Assembly (NCBI RefSeq): GCF_963675165.1
Contig: NC_087382.1
Span: forward strand, 6,372,315-6,436,314
From: Halichondria panicea
Taxonomy: Eukaryota; Porifera; Demospongiae; Suberitida; Halichondriidae
Direction of reading: 5' to 3'
DNA length: 64,000 nt
Both the position numbers and the translations under genes were made by a program. Each line of letters opens with the position of its first letter. Position 1 is the first letter of the stretch. Of this stretch, positions 16,318-63,501 are shown one piece after another. Under the pieces are notes generated by a model. That model did no database searches and was not told the DNA's origin. It saw nothing but the letters and a program-made list of their open reading frames with translations.

Positions 16318-17890
16318 CACAAATATCCATTTGAATAATGTGAGGGCTGACACGAAACTTGCACAAAGAAATGGAACATTTGTTAACTTTAAGCATATGA
16401 GTTATATTCATTGCTCTATATCGTGATACTTACAAACTCGTCCGTTGTTGGAAGAAAGAGGGTGTTGTTCTATTTCCCAGTAAGCAGTGATTCTGTCACC
16501 GGTACGTATATTGATGCCCAAGCTGTTTTTGCAGATCACAGTACACTGTGAACATTACAAACACACTTCTTGAGGATAGGTTGCATTGCATTTAGTGCCA
16601 ACTCAAATAAATGCCGCTGTGAACATCAACATTGTAAATTCAACATTCAGGGAAAATAAATATGTGGTGAAGATTGAGAGGGACAAGACAATATGACGTT
16701 TTGTTTGGGAGAGATGAAGTAACGTCAGTGGTTGTATTATTGCTGGAGAGATCAGTGTTCATCGGCAATCAGCCTTATCAGGATTTAGACGGGATTGTAA
16801 ATGTTGTTGAAATCAAGGCATGTATTATTAATGGATGTACTTTTATTGATAACGGAAAAACTGCTATTGCTTCCGTGTCAAGTAGCATAGTGTTTCATGG
16901 TAGGAATGTATTTATCAACAACACAGGTATAAGGGGAGGTGCAATGGCTTTGCATTTATCAAGGATTTACATGGGCAATTTCTTTTCACTATATTTTTCT
17001 AACAATAGAGCTAACCAAGTGGGTGGTGCCATAATTATGTGGAGGAGAATGTAAAAGCATCATACAAATGCTTTACAAGAACAGGTTCCATTATGGTTGA
17101 CAAGATCCACCAATTGGTACATTTATGAGCAACTATGCAAGTAATGGAGGAGACAATATATATGGGAGTGCACTGCAACGTAGATGTCAAGATACAGTTA
17201 CAACTTCTCTGGTTCTACAATTTAAAATAATCATTGCAAATTTCGGTCTTTCCTCCGTGACCTCTAACCCTTCACGAGTGTGTTTGTGTAATGAGCATGG
17301 TGTTCCCGAATGTGCAAACGTCAGACAACTACCACCTCGCTATGCAGTAGAGCTGTTTACAGTACTGTCTCTCTCGTTGTTGCTGGTTATGATTTTGGGA
17401 CAGTTCAAGGAGTTGTATATACACAGTACCCTCATCTGAAAACATTTCTATCGCTGTTGGTCAACGCGTTCAAGAGATTACAGATCATCGAAAGTGCACT
17501 GATCTGAATATCATGGTTCAAGCACTGAAGAGCAAGCAACATATTCTCAACTGGGCAAGTATCTGGTCCTATTGACAGACTAGAAGTAGAGAAAATGGTT
17601 CATGACTATACCCACATGCAGAAGTACAAAAAATTCAGAACAATCAAGGACAAACTTTTAGTGGTTCCAGTTAAATTACAAATATATTTCTGGAAGCACG
17701 TCCAGCAGGATTCAACCTCACCACCATACATTTGCTCATGTCACAATCAACTAGTAGAGAAAGAACTTTGACCCTCATCCCACTGAGAGTCGTTTGTACA
17801 GTAGAGGACACTGGGTAGATATGTTTAGCAACAGTCGTTGAGATGAGAAAGTGTAACTCCACACAGCCTTGAATTGTCTGATTGAACATA
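16318..17890 (+). pseudogene. Right-handed beta-helix membrane protein, decayed copy 2
   Basis: Homologous to 9230-10150 at high identity: HLNNV.. and VFIGNQPYQDLDGIVNVVEI, then FINNTGIRGGAMAL and YFSNNRANQVGGAI. Unlike copy 1 it continues through the next family segment (FGLSSVTSNPSRVCLCNEHG, then a GYDFGTVQGVVYTQYPHL-type block in another frame near 17385) and fades around 17650-17890 (FLEARPAGFNLTTIHLL). The multi-pass C-terminus is absent. Several stops and frame changes are present. Copies 1 and 2 therefore keep complementary parts of the same ancestral gene. Confidence 0.7.
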
Positions 17891-41764: not shown

Positions 41765-41836
41765 TACCCTCATACATCCACCAGGTTGCTAACTTTGTAC
41801 TGCTCGTGATTGTGCCAAAGAATTGGTATAAAACTG

Positions 41837-42904
41837 ATGGCTTCATTAGACGGCGGTTATGACTATGTATTTGTTTCTTGTACAACAAAGTCGTTAGAGT
41901 GCTCAATCTGCCTATTGACTGTTCGTGATCCGCATGTCAGTAGTTGCTGTGGCAACCAATTTTGTTACGTTTGTATCAACCGTATCCAACAGGACGACAA
42001 ACCTTGCCCGCTGTGCAATGAAAGTAGTTTTACAACCTTCCTACACAAAGGTGTGGCAAGAGAGATCAAGGCTATGAAAGTGTATTGCCCTGAGAAGACG
42101 CAGGGTTGCGATTGGCAGGGGGAGTTAGGACAGGTGAAACAACATCTCAACCCAGCTCCTGGGTCAGGAGAAATAGGGTGCTCCTTTGTCATTGTCGATT
42201 GCATGTTCCAATGTGGTAGACAATTTAGACGTGGTTTGATTCGAAATCATGAGGCTGAGGGGTGTTCAAAACGACCTGCAAAGACATCTTTAGTGCAGGA
42301 TGAAATGGCTTTGCTTCGTGAACACTTAAACAGTTTGGCCACTGAAAATCTTTCATTCAAAAAAGATATTAAAGTGCTTCAACAGGAGAATCGAGATATC
42401 CAAAAAAGAAATTTGGGGTTGGAAGCACAAGTTTCATCACTTATGAAACAAGTTGAAATTCATAGTCCACCTACGTCAGTGCCTCCTTTCTACTTCACTA
42501 TTGTTAATTTCGAGCATTACAAGAACATTAACTATGAAATCACTAGCCCTTCTTTTTATTCTCATCTTGGTGGTTACAAAATGTTTCTTCAGATATTTCC
42601 CAACGGTGAGGGAGCAGGATTCAACACTCACCTTTCAGTACACTTGTGCATCATGAGAGGAGAATACGATGACAAGCTTCGATGGCCACTCAAGGCAACA
42701 ATTCATTTTCATATTTATAACTGTATTTCAAGAAAATGGGTATTTCACACTTTTATCAGTTTAAAGAACGTTATACAACCCTTAGAATGCATATGCAATG
42801 CTCCAAATGGTCTTTCAAAATTCTTGGCAAATTGGCGATTAACTCAAGAAATTTTGCACTGTGATAGAATTCGTCTACGAGTAGCAAAAGTGGAGCTGCA
42901 CTAG
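41837..42904 (+). CDS. TRAF-like protein: RING, TRAF-type zinc finger, coiled coil, MATH
   Basis: A single uninterrupted exon encodes 355 residues from the ATG of MASLDGGYDYVF; there is no upstream in-frame ATG. The RING finger covers residues 22-60 (CSICLLTVRDPHV, then GNQFCYVCINRI and PCPLC). TRAF-type zinc fingers follow at about 78-150 (YCPEKTQGCDWQGELGQV). A coiled coil spans about 155-210 (EMALLREHLNSLATENLSFK). A C-terminal MATH-like domain runs from about 218 (PPFYFTIVNFEHYKN) to the end (IRLRVAKVELH). The layout is that of TRAF signalling adaptors with E3 ubiquitin-ligase activity, acting below membrane receptors. The absence of introns, among neighbours with many, suggests an origin by retroposition or membership in an intron-poor family expansion. 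The frame is intact, so it is probably functional. Confidence 0.9.
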   Translation: MASLDGGYDYVFVSCTTKSLECSICLLTVRDPHVSSCCGNQFCYVCINRIQQDDKPCPLCNESSFTTFLHKGVAREIKAMKVYCPEKTQGCDWQGELGQVKQHLNPAPGSGEIGCSFVIVDCMFQCGRQFRRGLIRNHEAEGCSKRPAKTSLVQDEMALLREHLNSLATENLSFKKDIKVLQQENRDIQKRNLGLEAQVSSLMKQVEIHSPPTSVPPFYFTIVNFEHYKNINYEITSPSFYSHLGGYKMFLQIFPNGEGAGFNTHLSVHLCIMRGEYDDKLRWPLKATIHFHIYNCISRKWVFHTFISLKNVIQPLECICNAPNGLSKFLANWRLTQEILHCDRIRLRVAKVELH

Positions 42905-44224: not shown

Positions 44225-44938
44225 CCTCCCCAATTTTTTAGATGTTCCTACTCCACTATAGACGCCCCCCCCCCCCCTTATATGTAAGAAATTTGATACT
44301 GAAGTTTTGGGACTTTGCCTTGCGCCATAACTTTGCGTGGACTTGTTCCCAAGCCAAATTAAGAAAAATCGGCCTGATGCAAGTTGTTTTAATGTGTGCA
44401 ACTGCTTATAGGGTGGACGCAGTACAGGGCACCCGTTTATGGTCAAATCCCCCATGTTACTCCCCCAGGAGAGACGATTTAAGTACATGCAATCACCTAA
44501 AGCATTGTTTTGTAAAATGATCGAGGTACTATATCATAGTTTTGCAAATTGCATGGTGTTGCCCAGTGCCCTCGTGAATGTTATTAGCTCTGCAACAGAC
44601 AACAAAGAACCATTAAATTTTGCCAAGGCATTCAAAGCATGTAAAGAAATTTTGAGATATGTTTATGAATATAATTGAACTTGAAGAGGTGAATATAGCT
44701 AACTGCATTCATGGCACCAGCGGATAAACAATAGCCAGAAAAGTGTCTAGCTATATAGCTATAGCCATAGATTTTTTGTAACAGAGTAGCATTTGTACAA
44801 GATGCAAGACTGTTTAATTTAGATCTGACATAGACCAGTTTAATACCCCTCTACCATAAATTCTACCTGTGACCTGCTGGAACATCGCTCTTGTAGCTGC
44901 AGCGCTATTATATAGTCATTTACACCATACTGTACAAA
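44225..44938. other. Region upstream of the giant receptor gene
   Basis: An open frame at 44439-44678 shows no recognisable domain and is not called. The promoter of the receptor gene should lie in the last few hundred bases, but no clear TATA box was found. Confidence 0.4.
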
Positions 44939-47900
44939 ATGGCCATGGGTTTATACAAGATCGCTTTTATTGCTTTTGTTTTATCCCTACTGTCACCTGA
45001 ACTGCAAATTGTGAATGCCCAAGGTACGTACATGTAGCTCTACTTAATGAGTTTGCATTATCTAGTCAGTTTATTTGCTGCTTTCTATTGTACACTTGTC
45101 TAACAAACACCTATTAACATTTTGTTTTTACTACAGACTATCTAGCTTTTGCGAATCGTCAATTTATCCATCGATTGGAACTGGGCACCTACAGTTTGAG
45201 CACTCTCTACACTGACAATAGTGGGAACTTTATCGCTTTTGACTACGACTACAGGTATTATAGTATGAGCTGAGATTTATTTAACTCTCATTAAAGTTGT
45301 CTATTGCTTGCTTCGTAATTAATTTTTAATCATATCTTTGGGTTACAAATCTACATTGTATGTGAGTTGTGCTTATGTCTCTATCTCTAAAGGCGTAATC
45401 TCCAGTATTGGACGGATGTTACCTCTGGTCCGACTGGTAGTATCTACAAGACCAACCTGGACGGTGGAGGATTCACTACTGTTATCAGTGTATCGCTAGA
45501 TGTACCAGGTACATTTAATTTTGCTATACATGCGTGTAAAGGTGTGAGAGTAGTTTCGTGGAGCTAATGTTTTGAAAAGTGTCTTTGTGAAGTACAGCTA
45601 CATTTTTTGTACATTGTCTGATTCCAGTGATTGCGCGTGCAGGCCTGCTTTTTACCAACTATATATTCTGCTGTATTAAATTTTAAGCAGTTACGATAAA
45701 GGCTGCATACAGATTCTCATACTACATTTGTTGCAGATGGTTTGGCAATTGACTGGCTGACAAACAAGCTGTACTGGTCTGAGGCCACCCCAGAAACCAT
45801 CTCAGTGCTTGATCTGGACAGTGGACACCGTCTCACACTCTTCACTCTGCCAGAGTCCAGTATACCTAGAGGGATAGCACTAGATCCAGCTAATGGGTGA
45901 GCAATGAGAACCAAATGAGAAGAGATGAAGGGCTGCATGATTGCTAGCTCCAATTATAAGCATAGGTGAAGTTTGGAATGGTCAAGCTACCCTAATTCCA
46001 AGATAGTTGACTATGGCTAAGGGACAATTAAGCTCGAACCACATTCAATTGCTCGCGTCGTACAGGGCAGGCCACCTAGCAACTACATTGTATCTTCACA
46101 CCTTAATTATTGCCTATAGAACTTGCATGATCTGGAGGAACCTTATACCATATATCACAGATTAGGTTTCGAATATGCGAGGTTAGTTTGATTGCTGGCA
46201 TGCCGTGACACTGCATTTTTTTTATTGCGAATTGCATGCACATGCTCACTCTTTGCTTTTCTTTCTTTTTGCGAATACTCGCACCGAAAGAACGTCGCAT
46301 TCGAAACCCAATATACATACAATAAATTGTTTGTGGTGACTATGATTTACCTGCAAACATTAACATAAAATGATGCGTTTCATTGTTGACAGCTACATGT
46401 TCTGGACTGATTGGGGTAGTCCTGGTAAAGTGGAGAGGGCGTACATGGATGGTACCGGTAGGATCACTATTGCAGACACTAATCTGGTGTGGCCCAATGA
46501 CATCACCATTGACTATGAGGTACGTAATTTAAGTAATGTTGGTCTCCTTGTCACATCAAACTCCTCCTAAAATTATACATGTATAACAGGTTTGTGGATT
46601 GGCTCGTTCTATAGTACGTAGTTGTCACTTGATTGACAGCTATCCTGCATACGTAGTTACACAAGTATTTAATAGTCAATGCATAATTATTTATACCCCC
46701 CACTGATTTTACAGCATGCAGTATATAGTCATGAATTTAGGATACATAACTATTGCATGTGTTTTCATGCTCATGCAAATTGAGTTTAATCATGATTCAT
46801 GACTTGCATACCGCAGTCCCAGACCCTCTACTGGGTTGATGCTAGTCTTGATAAAGTTGAGAGTGCTGGATATGATGGATCCAATAGACAGCTGCTGGTA
46901 TCTAGTGGACCGGGTGTGTATCATCCCTTCTCAATCACCTTCTATGATGGGACACTCTACTGGACAGACTGGCAGGTACATGTATATAGTAGCTTCATCA
47001 GTTGTCCATTTTTGTGTGTGCATGTGCAGTAGAGGTAAAGACTTCCCTGCATGATACATGTATTGAGAAAACCAGTCCATCAGGTACCAGCGCTAGTCTA
47101 TTTGCACCCAAGTTTGGCACTGTCTCAAATGGTGTGCATGCATGATTGGTAGTGCAGCAATGAAAGTACCCATTGGTTGCACTGAAATGCGCTGAGCACA
47201 CTAAAATGTCGCATATACATGTAACACGCTTTTCAAAAAAGTGTGCTATACGCAACATTTTAATGTGCTCAGCACACTTCATTTTTTACAGTGTGGTACA
47301 CATGAATTGAACCTTTGCTTTAACTGTGTTTGTTTATTTACAGGATTTGGTCGTCACAGCAAATTCTCTTGAGTCCAACACGCTCAGCATTGTATTCAGT
47401 GGACTCAGTACACAACCAACGGGCATCGAGGCGATCTCTGCTAGTAGGCAGGAAATCGGTAAGACTAGTTCGTGCTATATAATAATTATAATATATACAT
47501 CTTCCTTTCCGGACTATACAAGCCAACAGTACGTATTGTTTTTCAGTCTAAATTTTTTCGCTCTTTAATTATCTTATGAAATCATTGATGAAGTTGTTGG
47601 TGCTAACAATTTGTTCACAAACAGTTTCTACTCCATGTGACACTGCCAATGGTAACTGTGAGCAGCTGTGCCTGCTCGGTGCTGGTAGGACAGCCACGTG
47701 CGCGTGTGTGGAGGAATACACCCTAGCCAGTGATGGAAGGACCTGCGAGACTCCAGGTAAATGCAGCGCAACTATCATTACCGATATACGATAATTATAT
47801 ACGCATGCACGTTAGTTTAATGCAGCCTCTTACAGAATGATGTTTTCATTCTATTCCATGCATCGAATGAACAAAATGTTCATCAACTCATAATATTTTC

Positions 47901-50900
47901 GTTCACCCCTATAGCCTATTTGGGATTTGCTAATCGCTATTTCATTCATCGACTGGATCTCAGCACTTTCAGCCTGCAAACGCTCGTCACTGGTTTGAAT
48001 AACAACTACATTGCCTTTGACTATGACTACAGGTACGAGCCAGTGTTAGTATAATTACGTACCCGTGTATGGCTTTAATTTGATATCTTCCTTCTCTGGT
48101 ATTTTGAATGCTACATGATGATAAACTTTTTATCTTGTTCGTAGGCGTAAGTACCAGTACTGGACTGAAACCTACTCCACACCCATAAGTAGTATTTATA
48201 GGAGCAATCTACAAGGAGAAGATGTTCATCTTATCATTAGCGGCTCACTAGATGTGCCAGGTACAATTATAGGAGAGAAATCGGTTACCAATAATATTTT
48301 ATTCTCCCAACATCGATCATGAATATCACGGTGTACCAAATGGTGTTGAACTAAAAAAATTTTTGTGCTGACAGTTTGAGATTTGAGTCATACGTATAAG
48401 TATCGCTGGCTCTTATTGATCGTTAATTGTTAGTTACTTCCCTGCAGATGGTTTGGCGATTGACTGGCTGACAAACAAGCTGTACTGGACTGAGGCCACC
48501 CCAGAAACCATCTCAGTGCTTGATCTGGACAGTGGACATCGTCTCATACTCTTCAATCTGCCGGAGTCCAGTATACCTAGAGGAATAGCACTCGACCCAG
48601 CTAATGGGTGAGTCCCAAACCTAGTATTTACGTATTTTATGGTTGCCTATATAATTATGTCCATCTAGTACATAACTGTTGGTATATTATACCGTGCTGT
48701 GTTGTGTTGCTCTATACTGCTTAAACATAAGTATGTACACGTATATGAATAGTCTACATGAGCAAATTTGCACTTTACACAAAACACAGACTTTAGCATG
48801 ACACATTATAAACTTGCACGTAAACGTTTCATAGAATACAACGTGCGTCACTATTGAACCAATGCAGCTATATGTTCTGGACTGATTGGGGTAGTCCTGG
48901 TAAAGTGGAGAGGGCGTACATGGATGGTACTGGTAGGATCACTATTGCAGACACTAATCTGGTGTGGCCCAATGACATCACCATTGACTATGAGGTTTGT
49001 TCAACTTTCAACATCCAAGTACATACTTCTTTCCTGTTGTTTGCCTTCTGTGCTAGCTACTGTGCTTACAATTGTGAACTTGAAAACAGTTTAATTTAGA
49101 CTGAAGTATCGGTATGAAGGCTGTCTATATACTAACTGTTTACTTAACAGTCCCAGACCCTCTACTGGATTGATGCTAATCTTGACAACGTTGAGAGTGC
49201 TGGATACGATGGATCTAATAGACAACTCCTGGTGTCCTCTGGTGTGTTCCACCCGTTCTCAATCACCTTTTTCGATGGCACCCTCTACTGGACAGACTGG
49301 CAGGTGAGAACAAAGCCAGAGCATGTCCTGTAGAGCAGCTTAGATTTATTGTTAACTTGCTGAGGATAAGCATTCATCGAGATCGTAGTTTTAAAATTAG
49401 TTGTAAGCTGTAGTAGCTTTAAAGTGTGTGCATCTAAACTTCGATCCTTGATCAAGGCTTTTGTTGTGATGTTCACGTTAACAGGTGGATGCTGTGTATG
49501 CCATGGCTGTGGGGACCAACATACCTAGTATTGTCTTCAGTGGACTCACTACAGAACCAATGGGCATTGAGGCAATATCTCCAAACAGACAAGAAATTGG
49601 TGAACAAGATAATTATGTATTATTATGATTGTATATGTAGTACCAAGAGTGCATGAATATTATGTGTTAACACAGAATAATACGATACCTTAAGAACTAC
49701 GTGTATAATATACCATACCGTATAGCGGCTAATTTTCGTGGGGCAAAATATTCGTGGTTTTCGTGGTTGGAGGTCTGACTACGAATATTTTACCCACGAA
49801 TGAAGCGACCTTGCCTACCTTTACCTGTAGTGCAAGCTAAGCAACCACGAAAATATTACCCACGAAATGTCTCAATATTGCTGAACCACAAATATTTTGT
49901 CCCCCGAAAATTACCCGCTATACGGTAGGACTCACAAAGCACATTAGGAGTGTATTACAATATTCCTGACAATTAGGAGCATGCATAATTAATGTTTTAT
50001 CTATTTTCTCATATAGTTTCTACTCCATGTGATACTGCTAATGGTAACTGTGAGCAGCTGTGCCTGCTTGGCGCTGGTAGGACAGCCACGTGTGCGTGTG
50101 TGAATGGATACACTCTAACCAGCAATGGAAGGACCTGTACTGCAGTTCAAGGTACACAATAATGATTGATAATGAATCGGGTGCTGATGCGCAAGTCTTG
50201 ACAGATTGGAGTAGCCTTCAGAGTAAGCAAAAAACAAGTCGTAACTCGAACAAAGCTTTGGTTTGCAAATCCATGAATCTATAACACGAGGAAAAACTGG
50301 CTAGAAGCTATTGCTGGCGCCTACATGTACATTGCACCGGTAGTACACACACTGACGCCTACATTGCACCGGTAGTACACATACACAAACACACTACTGT
50401 ATACTTCGCCTGAGCATGCGCACCGAGGCATGGCTAAAATCAGAATGAATGAATTGACCACTGACAAGTATGTGTGTGTTGTGAATCAGTAGCGTATGTA
50501 CATGTTATTACATGTAGCTGTGAGCTTGTGACTCGTACTTATTACATTTACAGATTATCTTGTGTTTGCAAATCGTCAATTCATCCAACGTTTGGAACTG
50601 GGCACCTACAGTTTGAGAACTCTCTACACTGACGTTACCAGAAACTTTATCGCATTTGACTATGACTACAGGTAAGTACTCTGCAGTTGGACATGCATGC
50701 AGTAATTATTCAGGATGTTATGTCATCGGATTTGCATCATTGTGTCATGTACAGTTGCTTCTTAATTATAGCCAATTTAATGCACTTTACTCTGACTTTG
50801 ACCCCCTTTTGCAACATTAATTAGGCGTGATTTCCTGTATTGGACTGATGTAGGCTCTGGGAGTATTTTCAAGAGCAATCTAGAGGGAGGGAGAGTGACC

Positions 50901-53900
50901 TCAGTCATAAGTGGATCTCTGCAAGTGCCAGGTACAGTCGTCATTACCAAAGTGTGCATGTCCATCTATTTATGACATAATGTTCTTCATTATACTGTAA
51001 AAGGGAAGTATAAGAAATATATATATATATATCGGCTCACTTTCTGTACAACTCCATGCAACTAACTGATTTTTGATTGAACACTCTATAATTATACCCC
51101 TCTCGTAAAAGATGGTTTGGCGATTGACTGGATCACAAACAAGCTGTACTGGACTGAGGCCACCCCAGACACTATCTCAGTGCTTGATCTGGACAGTGGA
51201 CATCGCCTCACACTCTTCACTCTGTCATCATCTAGTGTACCTAGAGGGATAGCACTCGACCCAGCTAATGGGTGAGCAAGGACACATATACACATATATA
51301 ATGTCGATCCCTGTGGTACATGTACAATGTACGTATAATTATGCATATTTCACGAACTACACGGATTCATTACACCTGATATTCAATACCCCCTTAACCT
51401 TTAATCATGGGCCTATATTGATTAAGGACGTTGCAGGATTGAATTCCAATCTGTCTATGCTTATGTTGCAATAGCGAATACATTGTATGTTGTGACTATT
51501 CTTATAATGTATTCATGAGTCGGTGTCCCATATGGATATAGCTTACATTTATACCGTGTACCTAGGGAAATTTCTGATCTTTGGTCATCAATTCCAGCAT
51601 TAAAATGTGCTCATGTCCACAACGTAATACATTGTTGTGCACAACTGTTCTTTGGCCGTCTTATGAAATAAGTCAGCTACATGTATCCGACTTTGTGACT
51701 TTTCAATGGGAACTTCGGTTCTATAATGATCAATCGTTATAAACAGCCTATAGCACCAAAGCCAGCTGTATACACTGTGGTAAATCCATATTTTAGCAAT
51801 GCATTCCCTGTTTCTCAGCTGTCATATTTGTATGTACGTATTCATGCAGCTATATGTTCTGGACTGATTGGGGTAGTCCTGGTAAAGTGGAGAGGGCGTA
51901 CATGGATGGTACCGGTAGGACCACTATTGCAGACACTAATCTGGTGTGGCCCAATGACATCACCATTGACTATGAGGTACTGGAAAGAGATTAATGCACG
52001 TACTAAGATAACTACATTGTTCTTTGGTGGCAGTCCCAGACCCTCTACTGGCTTGATGCTAGTCTTGATAAAGTTGAGAGTGCTGGATACGACGGATCCA
52101 ATAGACAGCTGCTGATATCCTCTGGTGTACTTCACCCGTTCTCAATCACCTTCCACGAGAATGCTCTCTATTGGACTGACTGGCAGGTGAGGGGCAGGAG
52201 TTGCAATCATCGTACTGTTTACTTTTAAATTAGGGTCATAGCCTATTATATACAGGAGCATGCAGATACATAATACACTTACATGTTAATACTGAATGAA
52301 ATGTCTGATGAAGAACACACTTGCTATGATATGTTAATGTGTTTCTAGTCTGATGCAGTGTATATGAAGACCACTGACTCCAGTACTGCAAGTATTGTGT
52401 ACAATCGCCTTGGCACGGAGCCAATGGGGATTGAGGCTGTCTCCACAAGTAGACAAAGACTCGGTGAGTGGAGCCCTCGCTTCAAATAGTCTATACATAC
52501 ATGATTCCAGTCTCTGGTACATTAAAGTTTGCTTTAGTTCCGTAAGGTTAATGTAAACACTGTCCAATATTAAAGTCTCCCTATCTATGAATGAAATGTA
52601 CCTGTACCTGCACGGATGAATGGTAAAACACATCACCTAGTACTTCAGTAGGGACGTAGTCAGGAGACGTGGTCATCTGTGAAAGACAATTTCATTCACT
52701 TAATAACCTGAGGTATTCTCTTATATACTAGTTTCGAATCCATGTGACGCTGCCAATGGTAACTGTGATCAGCTGTGTCTGCTTAGTGCTGGTAGGGCAG
52801 CCTCCTGCCGCTGTGTGGAGGGATACACTCTGGATAGTAATGGAAGAACTTGCAGTAAGCCATCTAGCTCATACTGTACATGTATATACTGAATGGATAT
52901 CTAGTACTTTTATTGCAATGTACGTAGTCAATTTTACTCTATCGATCATGCAACGTGTAGCCGACAGATTACAATTATTCCACAGATGTTATCACTACCG
53001 TGACACCTCCTTCCCCTACAACTCCAATTCAATATGGTACTAGTTAAACGGATAATTTTCTTTACTGTGTATAGTATACGTATAGATTGCTTGTGAACGG
53101 TTTTCAAGCTCACAAGGGTGATTGTTGTTGTTGCTGTGGAATGTGATCCACCTACATAAACCTACTGTACGTATTTTACAGGCTCATGCCGCAATGCTGG
53201 GTTCACTGACTGCTGTCTAGGGGGAGACTGCCAGGGCTTGCCCAGAAGCTGTTTCTGTGACATCTCCTGTGTCATCCTACAGGACTGCTGTGAAGACTTC
53301 TTCCTCATCTGCACAGGTGAGTAAGGAGTACTTCAGTCGCCGCATTTTTTTCTAAACCAATAATTATTTGTGTGCCTGTATAAGATCAGATCAGATCAGT
53401 ATAATAATAATTTATTATAACATCACTGTTAAATGCATGGTATACAGTAGCTATATTGCCTGCATGGTCTGTATGTAGGGACAACTCTGCATGGCTAGAA
53501 TGCAGATTCAGTATGTCAGTGTTCCCTACTTGTTTTATACATAGCATACACCTGCTCTTCGCTGCTTTCTATTCCCAATGGAGCCATCACTTATAGCCAG
53601 GAGAGCACGTCCAATCGCTATGATATTGGAACTACTGCCACCTACTCTTGTAGTGGTAGGTTTTACTTGAGTGGGGGCTCCACTAGGAGCTGTACTAGGT
53701 CTGGAACAATGGGCATTTGGGATGGATCAGCATCTCAATGTTTAGGTTAGTTATTAATAATTATTGTCAAGAAATTTTTAGATACCATGTTGACAATGAT
53801 ACGTACCTCACTTCGCGGAAATTGTGGCTTTAGTCAAGATCGAATTAATTGATTCGAAGACCATAGATCTGCATGTGTAATTTTTGCTTTCACTCGATTA

Positions 53901-56900
53901 CAAGCTGTAGAACAATAATTATAATATTATAATTATTGTTTGTATATAATTATTGTATAAATTGTATTATTATTATATTGCAGTATTTTACTTGAAACCC
54001 GATTGTTATTACCACTCACCCTCTCTGTTGTTACTCTTTGCTTTACATACAGCAATTACATGCTCGACTCTGAATGCTCCTGCTAATGGACTTGTCTCCT
54101 ACGACCCTGATTTGACTGCTCCATACGAGTTTGGTACAACTGCTACATACATCTGTACCACTGGCTTTGGACTGTTTGGTGGAAGTAGGACAAGAGAGTG
54201 TGTAGTGTCTAGTTTGGGAGGCGGGGGATGGAGTGGAACCACTCCCACTTGCGGAAGTGAGTTGATTACAGAAGTATCCCTAACTCTTTAACCGTAAGAA
54301 AGAGCATGCAATTTTGGGAGTATTAGTAAAATTATGTAGCCTCCTTCGACCCAATTAATAAGGAGTGAATGTGGGGTGGGGATGAGGCTACTTTTAGGCT
54401 GACAAAACAGTAATGAACTTTCGATCGCAAGAATTAGATGTACATACATGTAGTAACTTATGCAAAAGGAGCCAGTCGAAATAATTACACTCATCCATAA
54501 TTTCAGGCATCACCTGCCCCAACTTGTCACCCCCAAGCAATGGTCAAGTGGCTTTCATTGCTGGACCACCCTTCATTTATGGCACAATAGCCACATACTC
54601 TTGTAATGAGGGTTACACAATCAGTGTAAACATACCTCGAACATGTGGAGGAGAAGGCTTAAGCACTAGCGGAGTGTGGAGTGGAGAGGCTCCATCTTGT
54701 ACAGGTATGTTAAACAGTTGCTGATGCATACATTATACATGCACATTCCTTCCAAATCATTGTTTACGTTTATGTTTATTACTGACAATGTTGTCTATAG
54801 TCTAAATACCGCACATACATGTATCAACAGTATGTAAAACGTACACTGTTGTAAGTATCATTTGACACATATTTTTGGTGCAGCCATTTCTTGCCCTGAT
54901 CTGATTTTTCCGACCAATGGGCTGATTGCTTTCTCTTCTACGCCACCTTACTCGTTTGGGACGGTGGCTACCTACAGCTGTGTGAGTGGCTTTGGACTGA
55001 GTGGGGGAGGGCGAACAAGAACATGTGGAGGAGATGGTTCCAGTCAGGGAGTATGGAGTGGGCCACCTGTCAACTGTGGAGGTAAGCTATCTTTGGAATA
55101 ATTATTATGTAGGTACATACGTACGTACTATTATAATCATCCAGAAATGTGCTCTTTTTAAGTGTAATTATAAGCCATGTGTACTGTATAGCGGCTAATT
55201 TACAAGGGGCAAAACATATTTTAGTTTCGTTTGAATCCCTGCATGAACACAAATATTTTACTCAAGAACAAAGCGATCATTGACCACGCCCATCTAGTTT
55301 TGTAAGCCCATTCATCAGCCTGCAGTGCACACAACCACGAAAATGTATCCACAAATACACAAATGTTTTGACCCCATGAAAATACCACTAGGTATTTATG
55401 TAAGTGTGTATTTACTTCAAGTCCTTTTTGTTTTGTCTTCTCCAAAAATAAGGGAGGTTATTTGAGTGGGTGAGCATACATACATGTATTTCATTCTAAT
55501 TACTTGCAGCCATTACTTGCCCTTCATTGGGTCTGAGTAACAATGGAGTCATAGAGTACAGTCCAACCACCACAAGCCCCTCTGATTTTGGGACAACGGC
55601 CACCTACACATGCAACGAAGGATTCTTTTTGGAAGGAGAAAGTATATTAACTTGTGGTGGGGATGGTCTCAGTGTGAACGGAGTATGGAGTGACCCAGCC
55701 CCAGTTTGTGCTGGTACGTACATTTATTATCAACTCGTTGTGCTGGACAATAAGCTGTGTCGCAATTGTATAAGTTATGTCTTGTTTCGTCTACAGCTGT
55801 CATGTGCCTTGTATTGCTCTATCCTGATAACGGTGTGATAACGTATTCCGAGGACTCCATTCCTGCTGCTGGATTCATGGAGACGGCTACGTACAGCTGC
55901 AACCCTGGCTTTGGGCTGTCCGGGGGAGACACTGTGAGGACCTGTGTTGGTGCAGCTGGAAGCTCTGGCGAGTGGACCGGAACTGCACCCACTTGTCAAG
56001 GTATAATGCAGTCAAGTTAACAGAAAAGGGGCTCTAAGACAAACAGGGATATAATTATATGAACACGCTAGCTTAATTTATTTCTCCTGAATATGGATAG
56101 TTTGCTCACTCAAATTACATTGCTGCAATACTATTACATCTTTCCTCCAGCTATTACTTGCTCTGCTCTCTCTCCTCCCACCGATGGAAGAATTAGTTTC
56201 TCTACGGATACCACTCCCCCTCATGTCTTTGGGACGGTGGCTACGTTCACTTGTGCTGCTGGTTTTGCCCTGAGGGGAGACACCACAAGAATGTGTGAGG
56301 GAGATGGGACAACTACTAGTGGAGTGTGGAGTGGGTCATCTCCAACTTGTAGTGGTGAGCAACAACCTACATATGCTGCGTATGGCGCACAATGGTGTAT
56401 GATTAGCACTGCCAACATAAATCTAAATTGAAAGTGTTCCCGAAAAGAGAGGTGACACCACATATAATTGTTACCACGTATAGAATTGACAAAATAAACA
56501 AGTTAGCTTTTTGCATGTGATCTCAATCGGTCACTGTCAAAATATTTTCTACAGACCATGCAAAGCACAGACTTTTGTTATCTGGCTAAATATGTATAAT
56601 GTCTAATATGTCTTCATTGCAGCATACATGTGTAGTTCACTGCCTCAAATCTCCAATGGATTGATCAGTTACAGCCCTGACAGTTCAAGTCCATTTGATT
56701 ACGGGACTATAGCCACATACTCTTGTAATGGTGGCTTCTACCTCATGGAGTTGTCAATGAGAAGTTGCAGTGGGTCAGGCTCACTTGTACAAGGTTACTG
56801 GTTGGGACAAGAACCAGAATGTGCAGGTTAGCTTATTGATGCTATAAGTAAGACGATCAGGCTTTGAGAAAAGAGCACTGTCCATTGACGTAATATACAT

Positions 56901-59900
56901 ATTTATTATGATTATTATACAGCATATATGTACGTATATAGTATTGAGTGCCATGAAAAGCGTCTATTGTAATGTCAGCGAGAGTACTTCGTTCAAAGCC
57001 CTATATCTGGACTTCTTTTGATACCTATATTTATATGCAGCTATTGTGTGTACCAGTCTGGCTCCTCTAAATAATGGATTACTTTCTTATGGACCAGACA
57101 CAGCTTCTCCATATGACTATCAAACAACTGCTACCTACAGCTGTAATGAAGGATACGGACTGTTTGGTGGGGATAGGGCTAGACAGTGTGATAGTTCAAG
57201 TCCAGGGGATGGAGGGTGGAGTGGAACTACTCCCACTTGTGAAAGTAAGTCTACCAACATTTATACCAGCTGGTTGATTGATCAAAAGGGGGAAGATTAC
57301 ATTTTCTCAAAGTTCCACGGTTGAAGTTCATTGTCTATGTGTGTACATGTACAGTGTACTCTCCGAATAGCGGACACGTTAGCACCAAAATCTCTGTCCT
57401 TTGTTCGGAGAGTGTCACTCAGTTAAAAGCTTACAATCAATTTTTGTATTGTAGAGTGTATTGAATGATGTTTGCAATGTGTAACTATGAGCATAAAAAC
57501 GTAAGATGATTATGTGTTATATTGAGAAAGGCTATCCAGCATTGATTAGTTACATTGATTTTTTACCATGAAAAGGACAGATGTATGTATATAGTTGTAC
57601 AATAATTATCCTCGAACCAGGCTGCTTCAGTAGTAAATTCCGGCAGTCTCCATGACATCACTCCAGATCATACCCGAGAGTGACCCGCCCACTGTCCGTT
57701 AGCCAAGAACGTGTTCCTGGAAATTTAATGGAACCAGCAACCATGCATGTCTGTAGTCCGGAAATGGGAGAATTCGTTATTCAGGAGTGTAGTTGGTGCA
57801 GTTGATATGATGTCGATCTGTACCTTGAGCTGTATCCGTTTATAATTATACTGTAACAGTGTCAGTTCGCTATTCGGAGCGTCCGTTAATAGAGAGTTAC
57901 TGTACTGTATGACTGTTGGGTAAACCCACCATTACCATGTAAAAGTATGGTACTTAGCTTGTTCAGCACAATCACGCCATGCGTACATTTATATCTCCTT
58001 TGCAGCCGTTATTTGTCCTAGCTTATCTCCTCCTACCAATGGACGAGTTACATTTTCCTCTGCTTCACCTTATTCATCTGGTACTATGGCTTCCTTCTCT
58101 TGCAATGAAGGCTACGGGCTGAGTGACGGAGACGGGATGCTAACTTGTGGAGGAGATGATTCTAGTCCAAACGGTGCCTGGAGTAGAGTGGTTCCTATTT
58201 GTGAAGGTGTGTAGGTCCTATAGGTAACGATTTATCACTCTTTAATGCTTGGTTGCAGCTATCACCTGTACTGCTCTGATACTTCCGACCAATGGGATGA
58301 TTGCTTTCTCTTCTACACCACCTTACTCGTTTGGGGTGGTGGCTACCTACAGCTGTGTGAGTGGCTTTGGACTGAGTGAGGGAGAGACAACAAGAACATG
58401 TGGAGGAGATGGTTCCAGTCAGATTGGAGTATGGAGTGGGCCAGTTGTCAGCTGTGGACGTACGTAATGCATGATACGTAGGTTACGTTAACATTGTGCC
58501 AAGTTTAACTTTGAAAACAATCCTCAATTGTCTTTTCCCCTCTCTTTAAGAATCTTGATTAGCAAGTGTACAGATAGCTACTGTAGGTTGCACGTTCTTT
58601 TATTGCAAAGTTTATTAATTTATCATAATTATCATACTATTTTGATAAACATGCAGCCATCACTTGCCCTTCATTGAGTCCAATCAACAATGGAGTCATA
58701 GCGTACAGTCCAATCGCCACAAGCTCTATCGACTTTGGAGGAACGGCTACCTATACGTGCAATGAGGGATTCTACCTTACAGGAAGTACTGCTCAAACAT
58801 GTGGTGGAGATGGGTCAAGCGTGGGTGGATCTTGGAGTGATTCACCTCCAGTCTGTGCAGGTACCGTTTATGAGCACATGCATGAAGATCAACAAAACCT
58901 AAATAGGGAGCTTATACATATTAGCATATTGTATACACAGCTAATAAACAGGGCTTATTGTGATTTAGTATGTCATTTCGTATTAACTGTGCCAATGAAC
59001 ATTTTTGGTGCATCATCTCACTTTGTGCTCTCTTCATACAGCTATAATGTGCCCTGTGCTGACCTACCCTGAGAACAGTGTGATAATGTACTCTGAGGAC
59101 TCTAGCTCCTCCCTTGATTTTATGGAGACGGCTACGTACAGCTGCAACCCTGGCTTTGGGCTGTCCGGGGGAGACACTGTGAGGACCTGTGTTGGTGCAG
59201 CTGGAAGCTCTGGCGAGTGGACCGGGGTTGCACCCACTTGTCAAGGTAAGACTACATGTAGAAATAATAGTCTGGTTGAATACCGTATATCGGGTTGAAT
59301 GCAATGTTCTATTGATTATGAATTGCCGAGTTTTTGCAATCGGAAGAAGTGCAAAGACTGAGCATGCGCATGCAATTTCCCATGCTCTGCATTCATGCAA
59401 TTCAAAATGCAATCAGCTATCGATTAAGCAACCCGATATATGGTGTATTACACACTTTACGTTCTAAAATTACAACATACAGATCAAACTACGTACAGTA
59501 AGTTTGCCTGTGTTTGCATGTGCATGTGTGCATTGTTCCTGAGTATATACCAATAATAATTATTATTTCTTTGTACAGCCATCACTTGCCCTCCCCTCTC
59601 TCCTCCTTCAAGTGGTAAAGTTAGCTACTCCACTGACTTAGGGTCTGACACAGATTCCAGTTACAGCTATGAAACAGTAGCTACTTTCACTTGCATTACT
59701 GGGTATGGAGTGAGTGGAGATACCACAATAACCTGTCTAGGAGATGGAGCTACTCCAAATGGAGTATGGAATGGGTTTTCTCCAATCTGCCTTGGTGAGT
59801 TATAAATTTGCCAATGCACATTACATGTATTATATTTTTAAGCATGCAGATATTATAGCGCCCAAAAAACTAACGATTTTCCGGTGGCACATACATACAA

Positions 59901-62693
59901 GAAATTCTGTAATCAGATTGGCGCTTAAATGGCGTTTAGCGTTAGAACGTAGATAACCAATCCATGAGGCTATTTTTACATTCTAGCCTATTATATATAT
60001 ATACGCCAGCCATTAACAATTTGAAGTAGCATAAAAAGCTACTGTAGTTGGCGCTCAATTGGAGCAAACATTTAAAGAGTGGCACTGTAAATAGAAATTA
60101 TATGCAGTTTATAAAAAGTGAACTGCTAACTGTTATTACTCTCTTGCAGCTTATACCTGTACAATGCTGCCGCCATTTCCCAATGGAGTGATCACGTACG
60201 ACCCTGATAGATCAAATCCATTTCAATTTGGCACGACTGCCTCCTTCTTCTGCAACGAGGGGTTCTACGTGAGCGGTCATAGCTCTATTAGAATTTGTAA
60301 TGGATCTGGAGCCACCAGTTTCTGGGAGGGAGAACAACCAGTATGCATCGGTGAGTGTGCTGGAGCATTGCATTTTAGTGTGGAGATACAGTGTTGTCAC
60401 TGCTATCTGTGATTGACTTCTTTTGATACCTGTACAGCTACTGTGTGCACCAGCTTGGCTCCTCCAACTAATGGATTTATTTCATTTGGACCGGATACAA
60501 CTTCTCCGTATGACTATCAAACAACTGCTACCTACGTCTGTATTGAAGGATACGGACTATTTGGTGGAGATAGGACTAGACAGTGTATTTCAGGAAGTGC
60601 TAACATTGAACAGTGGTCTGGGATTGCTCCAATGTGTGAAAGTGAGTGCTTACGGGGATAATCGATTGCATTTGCTGAAACCTTGTTACAATGATGCTTA
60701 GAAGTTAGACAACGATGTACTATATAACTTATGGGAATAAAACCCAAATGGCGGATGCATTGTTCTGATTAAAAAAATACCTGAGGCTTCTACATCTCAT
60801 AGAAATTAATACATGTAGCTGATCGACGTACATTGCATGGATACATAGTTGCTCATTGCATGGGCTATAAGCGTACAAATCAAAATGTGAGCATGTCTTG
60901 TTTTTATGGAGCGCAATATCCCAATGCAGTACAGTACTCATAGTGGTGTGACCAGTCAGATCTCATGCTGGTTCATATAATTATACTTTGTCTGTGTTAA
61001 ATTAATGCGTTTGGCTACTCACTTCCCCTCCAGCCATCACTTGCCCCTCCCAGTCCCCACCTATCAATGGACGAGTTGGCTTCTCCACTGACTTTCTCCT
61101 AACTCACGGTACAATGGCTACCTTCTCTTGTGATGTGGGCTACGGACTGAGTGGGGGGGATATGATGACAACATGTGGAGGGGATGGCTCTGATCCATTT
61201 GGTACTTGGATTGGAGCAGTCCCAGCATGCGAACGTGAGAATAAAGTGCTCAAGTTTGTGCAAGCAGCATGATTGTTGAGATGTATTGGTCTGTCTGTAT
61301 GTGGTTGTTATTGATAGCAACATGCAAGCATGTGTACCTGGTAAACCTGGAAATGTATACATAACTTTATACGTAGTGAAATCTGTCTACATGTGTAACA
61401 TACGTTTATGTAAATTGCATATTCTCTTATTTGCAGCAATCACCTGCTCACCCCTGAGCTCTGTCACTAACGGAAACATAGTGTATAGCCGTGACACTAC
61501 AACCACCTTTACCTTTAGTACAGTTGCCACCTATTCATGCAACGAGGGATTTCTGTTGCTAGGAAACAACGAGCAAAGATGTAGTGGTGATGGGAGCAGT
61601 GTTAATGGCCTTTGGAGCGGTGGTTCAACTCCAGTTTGCACAGGTGTTGTGTTGAAAATCAAAGTGTAGTTACTTCACCTCTCATTTTCTTCAGCTTTTT
61701 CGTGTCTCAAATTATCTCTCCCCATAAGTGGAGTGATAACCTATTCTGAGAATGCCATGGGCTTTGTGAGTACAGCCACATACAGCTGCAACTCTGGCTT
61801 TGGGCTGTCCGAGGGTGACACTGTAAGGAAATGTGTTGGTGCAACTGGAAGCTCAGGGAAATGGAATGGGACTGCACCCTCTTGCCAAGGTATGTATATA
61901 TATAGCCAGTGTATACCTGAGCGTGTGCCACTCCCTAGCATTTAAATTGTTACACTTACTTCCCAACAGCTGTACTAGATGTGAGTGAACAGAGAGCTAC
62001 TATTGGAGGTGGCGTGAGTGGTAGCCTACTCATCATCATCGCCATAGTGGCTATCTTGGTGATAGTGCCTGCTCTGATTGTCTACAAGCGTCGAAAAGGA
62101 AAGGATGATTTGTAAGTTAATGATTATGTAGTCTTAAATATGGCCTCTAATATGGTTGCCATGCACTATAGCCTCATTCCCATCCCGACTTTTTCCTATT
62201 GCCACATGCATCCTGGTTAATTTCACTGTTGCATGCACACAAAAACAGCCGCCCACAACGATTTAACAACGACCCTGAACGTGTAGATGATAATAGTTAC
62301 GAGCCGGTGGTTGCCAAGTTGAACCCAGCATATAATCACATTCAAGCCGAGGGAAATGTTATGACAGTCGAGAATCCATTGTATGGAGAAGATTTACACG
62401 GTTACGAGAATGTCACTGAGTATAGTCAACACGATCTTGACGATGATGGGTACGATCCCATTGACAATGTTAAAGAAGATTATGGAGACAAGAAAAACTA
62501 TGGCCGCCCCATTGATAACATTAAACAGTACTATGATGAGGTGGTTGACAGCTCTGAAGAGGATTTTGATGATCCCATGGAAAATAATGATCATGTTAGT
62601 GTTATTGACAGTGAAGGTTACGATGTGATTGCTCGTCGTGATTACGAGAACAGCAACCCAGTTTATGCTGATGACATTACACTAATTAACTAA
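44939..62693 (+). CDS. Giant type I receptor: 3x(YWTD propeller-EGF), SMB-like, 19 sushi, TM, NPxY tail
   Basis: Forty-five exons total 7,467 coding bases (2,488 residues plus stop). Exon 1 (44939-45023) is a signal peptide, MAMGLYKIAFIAFVLSLLSP. Three seven-exon cassettes follow, each a six-bladed LRP-type YWTD beta-propeller plus one EGF-like domain. Next come a Thr/Pro linker (52986-53036), a somatomedin-B-like exon (53182-53316), 19 one-exon sushi domains (53545-61889), a transmembrane exon (61970-62111) and a cytoplasmic tail (62249-62693). All domain-level junctions are phase 1, so every module can be shuffled without breaking frame. Propeller-EGF units recall LRP5/6 and LRP4, while the sushi array recalls complement-type receptors. 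LDL-receptor A repeats are absent. The role is inferred: a cell-surface ligand-binding or adhesion receptor with tyrosine-based signalling or endocytosis. I assign one gene because phases join throughout and no stop, promoter or second signal peptide intervenes; transcript evidence is not available here. Confidence 0.85.
46164..46309. mobile_element. MITE with AGGTTTCGAATATGCGA ends (receptor intron)
   Basis: GGTTTCGAATATGCGA on the left pairs with TCGCATTCGAAACC on the right. About 146 bases inside the intron before the third blade exon of cassette 1. Confidence 0.68.
47183..47285. mobile_element. ~100-bp hairpin element (receptor intron)
   Basis: GCTGAGCACACTAAAATGTC is inverted as ACATTTTAATGTGCTCAGC. 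The whole segment can fold on itself. Confidence 0.72.
47915..50151 (+). other. Receptor cassette 2: YWTD propeller plus EGF
   Basis: Exons 47915-48032, 48145-48260, 48448-48607, 48868-48994, 49151-49303, 49485-49599 and 50017-50151. Exon sizes match cassette 1 except the fifth (153 against 159) and the EGF exon (135 against 132). Blades include YQYWTETYS, NKLYWTEATPET, YMFWTDWGSPGK, QTLYWIDANLDNVES and GTLYWTDWQVDAVYA. Confidence 0.88.
49716..49927. mobile_element. MITE of the CGTATAGCGGGTAATTTTCG family (receptor intron)
   Basis: TACCGTATAGCGGCTAATTT on the left and AAATTACCCGCTATACGGTA on the right. 212 bases, very similar inside to the copy at 12790. Confidence 0.92.
50554..52854 (+). 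other. Receptor cassette 3: YWTD propeller plus EGF
   Basis: Exons 50554-50671, 50825-50931, 51112-51271, 51850-51976, 52034-52186, 52349-52463 and 52732-52854. Blades include FLYWTDVGSGSIFKSNLEGG, NKLYWTEATPDT, YMFWTDWGSPGK, QTLYWLDASLDKVES and NALYWTDWQSDAVY. The first exon is closer to cassette 1 than to cassette 2. Confidence 0.88.
52986..53316 (+). other. Receptor linker and somatomedin-B-like domain
   Basis: A 51-base exon (52986-53036) encodes NVITTVTPPSPTTPIQY, a Thr/Pro linker likely to be O-glycosylated. Exon 53182-53316 encodes a compact domain with ten cysteines, spaced SCRN..DCC..GDC..SCFC..SC..DCC..IC, which resembles somatomedin B with two extra cysteines. Cys-rich domains of this type often mediate protein binding. 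The exact family call is tentative. Confidence 0.7.
55183..55395. mobile_element. Degenerate MITE of the same family (receptor intron)
   Basis: ACTGTATAGCGGCTAATTTA on the left and a decayed right end CATGAAAATACCACTAGGTA. Inner AACCACGAAAATGTATCCAC survives. Confidence 0.7.
57352..57907. mobile_element. ~556-bp element with CAGTGTACTCTCCGAATAGC ends (receptor intron)
   Basis: The left end CAGTGTACTCTCCGAATAGC then GGACAC resembles the inverse of the right end (GTCCGTTAATAGAGAGTTAC then TGTACTG). A second inverted pair, TTCGGAGAGTG and CTATTCGGAGCG, lies inside. It occupies the longest sushi intron. Confidence 0.65.
59281..59447. mobile_element. ~167-bp MITE with TACCGTATATCGGGTTG ends (receptor intron)
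   Basis: TACCGTATATCGGGTTGAAT on the left; AGCAACCCGATATATGGTGT on the right. Both arms also carry GCATTTTGAATTGCATG-type inverted words. Confidence 0.7.
61970..62693 (+). other. Receptor transmembrane helix and tyrosine-rich cytoplasmic tail
   Basis: Exon 61970-62111 encodes a short stalk, a hydrophobic helix (SLLIIIAIVAILVIVPALIV) and a basic stop-transfer sequence YKRRKGK. The last exon (62249-62693) encodes about 148 acidic residues with three NPxY motifs (NPAY, NPLY, NPVY) and further tyrosines in YEPV, YENV, YDPI, YDEV and YDVI contexts. NPxY motifs bind PTB-domain adaptors and endocytic adaptors. YENV fits a Grb2-type SH2 site when phosphorylated. LRP5/6-type PPPSP motifs are absent. 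Confidence 0.88.
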
Positions 62694-62699
62694 ATACAT

Positions 62700-63501
62700 C
62701 ACTGTGCAAGACCAGTTAGAACACACGCTTTATATATAGGTATGCTTGTTCGTGTACTAGATCTACTTAACATAGTATAAAAATTAATATACAAAACTGC
62801 GTCACTTTCCCCCCTCCACCCAATTAAGAGATTTTTGTTTTGTATTTATACATATCGTATGGTTGTGTTTTTATAAATGTGTTAATTAATTAAGTTGAAT
62901 TGCCTTGCCTGATGGCATCAACCCGCATGATTTAACTGACCTTCAAGTGAAGTGTGCTAATGTATACTGACTTACTGCATGTTCAAGGTTTTATGTGAAG
63001 CCACCCACCCATGCCAGCTACATATGATGTCATATCTATAGTACCCTATAGTTATAATCATGTGCAGATTTGCTGTTTCACTGCGCATATCATGCACGTG
63101 CTGTTCCACAGTATATTGTGCACACAGATGTGCATGAGAGAATTAACTATAATAGTGTAGAGATGATCGATACATGCATCTCTCAGCATTTAGCATTAAT
63201 CATGATGAATAATAATTGCTAAAATTTAATGCTAAATCAAAAGGTATAATGCTCGTGGTTTTCACTGATTAAGCATCTACCGCGAACATGTATACCCACG
63301 AATTTAATATCACATGCATGCACTGCAGATCGAAAGGCTGCTATTCCGCAAACTGTCATTCCACGAAAGTTTATACCCTTGAAATATACCCGCTATGATA
63401 GTCAAATTGATAAACACAGACTTGCATACATAAAATTACACTTGTAAACAATTAACTTATAGTGGCAGCGGCTGGTAAAAATAGTTGGTAAAAGTGACTG
63501 A
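62700..63501. other. Gap between convergent genes, with one MITE
   Basis: Presumed 3' UTR of the receptor, then spacer. A copy of the TATAGCGGGTATATTTCGA family covers about 63241-63400 (ACTGATTAAGCATCTACCGC, CTGCTATTCCGC, AATATACCCGCTATGATA). Confidence 0.5.

Follow-up and report, generated by a model that had tools for sequence, protein, structure and literature searches.

Does this locus of the sponge Halichondria panicea encode one protein in which the propeller-EGF head of a lipoprotein-receptor-like molecule is joined to a long array of sushi domains, and, if so, which receptors are its relatives? We analysed a window of 64,000 nucleotides (contig C6, 6372315-6436314) from the 131-Mb, 39-contig genome, with a gene content that is animal. 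The gene was rebuilt from acceptor and donor sites and reading frames; the exon count and the span of exons 22-25 given by an earlier sequence-only reading were known beforehand.

Gene model and domain architecture

The rebuilt gene has 45 exons on the forward strand (44939-62693), joined via GT-AG introns in 44 out of 44 cases into a single open frame of 2,488 residues plus a stop codon. The introns have a mean length of 234 bases (range 51-761). Their phases 1, 2, 1, 2, 0, 0, 1 are identical across the three propeller cassettes, and between EGF 3 and the transmembrane (TM) exon all introns are in phase 1. Splice-site scoring found single sites to be weak in places despite the overall frame; a chance assembly of exons is ruled out by the 44 GT-AG introns, the one frame and the phases repeating in three cassettes. 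The encoded protein comprises, in order, a signal peptide, three YWTD-propeller/EGF cassettes, a short Thr/Pro linker, a somatomedin-B-like (SMB) domain, 19 sushi domains, a TM helix and a tail with three NPxY motifs. The domain list and order, the 45 exons and the 2,488 residues had been proposed from the sequence alone, and the splice-site rebuild and Pfam bear them out. The features are as follows.

44939..45023, +: exon 1, signal-peptide exon with the start codon (N-terminal end hydrophobic, KD19 1.89 at residue 1; donor AAG/gtacgt in phase 1)
45137..47756, +: exons 2-8, propeller 1 and EGF 1 (exon rebuild, Pfam); propeller exons 45137-45254, 45393-45508, 45737-45896, 46393-46519, 46817-46975, 47344-47458; EGF 1 exon 47625-47756
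47915..50151, +: exons 9-15, propeller 2 and EGF 2 (exon rebuild, Pfam); propeller exons 47915-48032, 48145-48260, 48448-48607, 48868-48994, 49151-49303, 49485-49599; EGF 2 exon 50017-50151
50554..52854, +: exons 16-22, propeller 3 and EGF 3 (exon rebuild, Pfam); propeller exons 50554-50671, 50825-50931, 51112-51271, 51850-51976, 52034-52186, 52349-52463; EGF 3 exon 52732-52854
52986..53036, +: exon 23, 51-base Thr/Pro-rich linker, phase 1-1; the least certain exon, its donor scoring weakly (rank 43 of 44)
53182..53316, +: exon 24, somatomedin-B-like domain with 10 cysteines (Pfam, profile, alignment)
53545..56354, +: exons 25-31, sushi 1-7, block A (exon rebuild, Pfam)
56623..59794, +: exons 32-38, sushi 8-14, block B, a repeat of block A (exon rebuild, Pfam)
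60150..61889, +: exons 39-43, sushi 15-19, block C, taken to be the counterparts of 1, 2, 3, 5 and 6
61970..62111, +: exon 44, juxtamembrane region and TM helix (KD19 up to 3.54), then basic KRRKGK
62249..62693, +: exon 45, acidic cytoplasmic tail with NPAY, NPLY and NPVY, six Yxx[LIV] sites and the stop codon

Pfam identified 12 stretches of Ldl_recept_b (PF00058; 2e-103) and three of the EGF-type FXa_inhibition family in the head, ten Sushi stretches in the piece carrying ten sushi exons and eight in the piece carrying nine. The scan of the protein revealed no SRCR domain and no LDL-A repeat (PF00057), and the genome search likewise found no LDL-A at the locus. The signal peptide and the single TM helix are clear by hydropathy, the latter as the one strong hydrophobic span after the sushi array (windows of 19 residues with starts at 2302-2317). 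The 157-residue tail contains three NPxY motifs against a shuffled mean of 0.08 (0 of 20,000 shuffles reached three), and, searched genome-wide in the correct frame, it yielded no relative.

Naming the domain of exon 24 is less straightforward. Somatomedin_B scored 18.8 bits here, below the Pfam cut-off of 23.1, and was likewise below the cut-off in four relatives' stretches scanned for it; the copy at the related locus C5c was above it (24.6 bits). Ten cysteines are invariant in all six SMB sequences (that of this gene and five further copies taken from four loci of the same genome). Searched singly against the PDB, the domain matched plant defensins best and vitronectin fifth. A profile of the six sequences gave an endoribonuclease as best match (3e-4), then autotaxins (E from 0.003) and, more weakly, SUSD2 (0.13), a plant defensin (0.18) and vitronectin (0.47). 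With an endoribonuclease and plant defensins among these matches, SMB is a probable name for the domain rather than a secure one.

No extra sushi exon was found in the 761-base intron at 57245-58005, and tblastn with a query whose tail was out of frame found no further copies in the window outside 44900-62700. Elsewhere in the window, a 618-residue frame at 633-2489 (-) has a Mutator-like transposase domain (246 bits), and a TRAF-like frame of 364 residues at 41810-42904 (+), about 2 kb upstream of the receptor, has MATH above and RING below the cut-off. Two frames at 9316-9861 and 16671-17054 (+) have in common a stretch that is near-identical by eye (TRQYDVLFGRDEVTSVVVLLLERSVFIGNQPYQD...); one of them was scanned and matched no Pfam family.

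Loci sharing the same head

A search of the whole genome with the third cassette plus the SMB domain found propeller units on C5 (four places), C7, C11 (two), C13 and at weaker places. Profiles made from the window exons revealed propeller, EGF and SMB in the same order and on the same strand at this locus and five others (sequence labels L051, L053, L054, L055 and L036), that is, at six of the nine strongest propeller loci in our own grouping. At C13 and at both C11 loci the stretches scanned contained no SMB.

C5a, 3264-3260k: propeller followed by EGF and SMB, in two tandem copies
C5b, 3275k: propeller followed by EGF and SMB; EGF weak (13.5 bits)
C5c, 3284k, -: propeller followed by EGF and SMB
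C5d, 3386k, +: propeller followed by EGF and SMB
C7, 4804-4798k: propeller followed by EGF and SMB

The sequence downstream of SMB was followed at C5a, C5b, C5d and C7 by reading exon by exon on one strand, as frames without splice models. At C5a a Ser/Thr-rich frame (L051 4531-4854) is followed by a TM frame with a hydropathy of 3.59. At C5b, FN3 is spread over two frames (22 and 26.9 bits against a cut-off of 25), which are followed by a TM frame (3.25) and by a tail that contains FDNPGY. C5d has T-rich repeats, FN3 in two frames (20.4 and 22.7 bits, both below the cut-off) and a TM frame (2.9). At both C5b and C5d the pair of FN3 matches represents the halves of a single domain; another FN3-like unit was seen by eye only. 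At C7, Ig (42.6 bits), EGF (35.8) and Ig (66.2) follow, and the reading ended before any TM. A TM frame was thus reached in three of the four relatives. None of the four has a sushi domain in the 46.5 kb scanned. After SMB, NPxY occurs at C5b only, and is absent from the frames at C5a and C5d, where the tails are partly modelled, and at C7, which was read short of the TM; the NPxY tail is not general to the relatives. On the minus strand at C5a, a 320-residue Ser/Thr-rich frame with SIQPTRTKAFVSDTK-type repeats (L056 170-1129) runs straight into the first propeller.

Since EGF followed by SMB recurs at the relatives and the later modules differ, SMB after EGF can be taken as the mark of a family. 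Furthermore, the relatives share the head and carry other modules, so the gene is best read as a member of a putative receptor family of this genome with a common head and an exchanged stalk (sushi, FN3, Ig-EGF-Ig or Ser/Thr-rich). The combination of domains had been put forward as singular; instead, the gene is one of a group sharing propeller-EGF-SMB and differing downstream. In a propeller tree the three window units cluster and adjoin two fragments of C5a, the supports being no better than 81-94. The tree is no more than a hint, because some rows are short and the first C5a unit was split in extraction, a part of it falling with C11.

Origin of the sushi array and homogenisation of exons

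Sushi domains seven apart have a mean identity of 60%, compared with 41-46% at all other spacings from 1 to 12, and for 17 of the 19 domains the best match is the one predicted by a seven-domain block model. The array (53545-61889) therefore corresponds to a block of seven, copied once whole and once with two missing. In all, the block is repeated 2.7 times, the last copy (15-19) being without its fourth and seventh members. It reads as an array that would have grown from this block. The nearest arrays by sequence elsewhere in the genome, among the matches listed, are at C3 6400-6418k and C5 3427-3549k. Among outside sushi arrays the best match was 56% over 209 residues, with single domains reaching up to 69%, and C6 was the only locus with both propellers and sushi among the best candidates listed. 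The C3 array, one of the nearest relatives of the window gene's sushi domains (6400140-6418259, -; L009, L018, L020 and L026), gave 43 sushi matches in about 13.5 of 18 kb scanned.

A second kind of similarity is bounded by exons and involves these stretches.

45737-46975, 48448-49303 and 51112-52186, +: homogenised propeller spans
54884-55081 and 58259-58459, +: homogenised pair of sushi exons
55797-56000 and 59042-59245, +: homogenised pair of sushi exons

When the three cassettes are compared as DNA, identity is 84-98% in exon slots 3-5 (98.4% for slot 4 in all three pairs), 56-86% in slots 1, 2 and 6, and 79-86% in slot 7 (EGF). Differences at fourfold sites are 12/66, 9/63 and 9/63 in slots 3-5 versus 17/29, 23/35 and 19/29 in slots 1, 2 and 6 (Fisher p 2e-4, 3e-7 and 2e-6, with the grouping of slots chosen after inspection). 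The introns after slots 3, 4 and 5 were within two SD of 15 base-shuffled copies in nine of nine comparisons, and BLAST matches stop within about 11 bases of the exon edges. In the sushi array, fourfold differences are 1/32 between domains 4 and 11 and 4/30 between 6 and 13, with 32-82% in the other seven-apart pairs.

The C11 pair of loci forms one alignment of 2,058 columns at 83%, a control of limited weight. Comparison of C5c with C5d revealed a 678-base tract at 96% amid pieces at 70-91%. These two loci (L036, C5 3284k, - and L038, C5 3386k, +) are an inverted pair of paralogues about 100 kb apart, and the tract suggests a recent conversion between them. For the window gene, repeated gene conversion would be the simplest reading of the homogenised exons, and it would be confined to exons because the introns no longer match. 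A spliced template for such conversion is possible. A bolder speculation, which we put forward only tentatively and think improbable as a whole, is that of an undescribed plug-in receptor family of early animals with one head, interchangeable stalks (sushi, FN3, Ig-EGF or mucin-like) and NPxY tails in some members, where the head and stalk exons of the sushi member would be near-identical through conversion stopping at exon edges, possibly from a template of spliced RNA or cDNA.

The exchanged stalks and the homogenised exons could also be taken for an immune diversification system, with the protein as a receptor for self/non-self or microbe recognition. Several loci do combine one head with differing following modules, the homogenisation inside the gene is patchy, and sushi repeats are reported together with SRCR domains in sponge immune-type receptors (PMC8242945). 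We consider this doubtful: the diversity of stalks lies between loci, not alleles, and homogenisation is the opposite of diversification. A family with a common head and exchanged stalks remains the preferred reading of the data.

One gene or two

Is this family member a single gene? A pair of adjacent genes, the first encoding a secreted or short propeller-EGF-SMB protein and the second a separate sushi-array receptor with a TM and an NPxY tail, would be consistent with some of the following observations. The three weakest donors are those of introns 44 (between TM and tail), 23 and 22 (ranks 44, 43 and 42), and the latter two flank the linker exon and link EGF 3 to SMB. Low-scoring acceptors were found in introns 16, 17 and 5, all within propellers, and their exons recur in register in the other cassettes. 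Skipping of exon 23 would leave the frame intact, and the link from EGF 3 to SMB would then still depend on the donor of intron 22. Stops follow at 52890 and 53322 if exon 22 or exon 24 is read through, and therefore secreted isoforms made in this way are possible. Likewise, if intron 44 were left unspliced the protein would end just past the membrane. The sushi arrays on C3 and C5 have no propeller match beside them among the matches listed.

The junction that two genes would have to break is among the strongest in the gene: intron 24, which leads from SMB to sushi 1 (53317-53544), has a donor ranking 2 of 44 and an acceptor scoring above 98.5% of the unused AGs. A search for a separate start for the sushi part, covering 52440-53545, found none at the SMB-sushi junction. 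Intron 24 contains no more than two ATG frames that reach 15 residues (53491 and 53513), both lacking a phase-1 donor. A second gene would be favoured by a hydrophobic ATG frame that begins at 52756 and overlaps the EGF 3 exon in a different reading frame, but by eye none of its three phase-1 donors comes close to consensus. Furthermore, three of the four followed relatives run from SMB to a TM, so that a head ending at SMB would be an exception. We therefore regard two genes as unlikely, and infer that all exons are expressed as one transcript. The locus thus probably encodes, in one gene, a type I membrane receptor within the LDL-receptor superfamily, with a membrane-distal propeller-EGF-SMB head, a stalk of 19 sushi domains and a tail with three NPxY motifs, belonging to a family with varied stalks.

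Relationship to known receptors

Compared with PDB chains, a single propeller scored 250-256 bits against LRP4, 231 against LRP6, 182 against LDLR and 138 against nidogen; higher scores with LRP2 are sums over eight stretches, with 199 at best in the chain printed. Of the features of the broad LDL-receptor superfamily, a propeller followed by EGF and a single TM with an NPxY tail are present and the LDL-A ligand-binding repeats are absent. Endocytic receptors of the LDLR type, where the internalisation signal is FxNPxY, thus share the YWTD propeller, EGF, TM and NPxY tail with the window gene, which differs from them in lacking LDL-A and in having several propellers and a sushi stalk. LRP4 and LRP5/6 are likewise single-pass membrane proteins with tandem YWTD propeller-EGF units, whereas the window gene has neither LDL-A nor PPPSP, has three propellers and places SMB and 19 sushi domains between its head and the membrane.

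In sushi-array receptors of the complement-receptor type the ectodomain is sushi only, while here a propeller-EGF-SMB head precedes the array. SUSD2, with SMB, sushi, AMOP and VWD domains, also unites SMB and sushi in one membrane protein, but has AMOP and VWD and no propellers. From the sponge Geodia a putative aggregation receptor of the SRCR/SCR type was reportedly described by Blumbach in 1998. It is, like the window protein, a mosaic receptor including short consensus (sushi) repeats; the window protein differs in being without SRCR, and propellers go unmentioned in the title of the Geodia paper.

In Stylissa carteri, SRCR domains co-occur with YWTD/LDL-receptor modules according to PMC4772301, which again joins YWTD to another domain class in a sponge, the partner being SRCR and not sushi; this is the nearest statement to a propeller-sushi receptor that we found. 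The sushi-thrombospondins of sponges and anthozoans, with at least three sushi domains, about 1,000-1,300 residues and a thrombospondin C-terminal region, are similar in that tandem sushi domains were joined to an older extracellular plan in early animals; unlike for the window gene, propellers are not mentioned in the passages of PMC6526912 consulted. Titles and abstract openings among the matches listed in a literature search named no propeller-sushi receptor, which is weak evidence that none has been described. Mosaic receptors in sponges are already known, and the propeller-sushi combination is a variant of these.

The locus had been described as LRP5/6-type, which holds for the sequence of the propellers (closest to LRP4, then LRP6, ahead of LDLR and nidogen) and fails for membership. 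That the gene is a diverged Wnt co-receptor, the LRP5/6 orthologue of this animal, is highly improbable despite its propeller-EGF tandem and its score with LRP6 structures: it has three propellers, no LDL-A and no PPPSP in the tail, even with a pattern looser than PPPSPxS; the sponge LRP5/6 of PMC8235796 combines four tandem propeller-EGF units with three membrane-proximal LDL-A repeats and, in its tail, five PPPSPxS motifs, a feature set by which a Wnt co-receptor was rejected; and a separate C13 locus has eight LDL-A matches upstream of several propeller-EGF units. The C13 locus (about 1135-1147k; L047, L029 and L008), where a TM frame and a proline-rich region are also found, is a candidate for the canonical LRP of the genome.

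Proposed function and significance

The genome has nine matches to the PTB/PID domain over the cut-off, and therefore adaptors for NPxY tails may exist. On the basis of the propeller kinship, the missing LRP5/6 features and these PTB domains, we propose that the protein is likely a receptor for endocytosis or adhesion that carries a long spacer. From its architecture we infer a ligand, extracellular or of the matrix, that the propellers would bind, and endocytosis or signalling, which the NPxY motifs would set off by recruiting PTB-domain adaptors. The sushi array would hold the head off the membrane and might contribute multivalent contacts. If a sushi domain contributes 3-4 nm, the stalk would be tens of nanometres long.

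The locus and its relatives show, within one genome, a receptor head that is kept while its spacer is exchanged, and in this gene the joining rule is that of phase-1 exons. To the mosaic receptors found in early animals it contributes a candidate that resembles lipoprotein receptors. The exon-bounded homogenisation provides a testable case of repeats within a gene being kept alike while their introns drift. If orthologues are present in other species, the family could yield a dated series of stalk exchanges.
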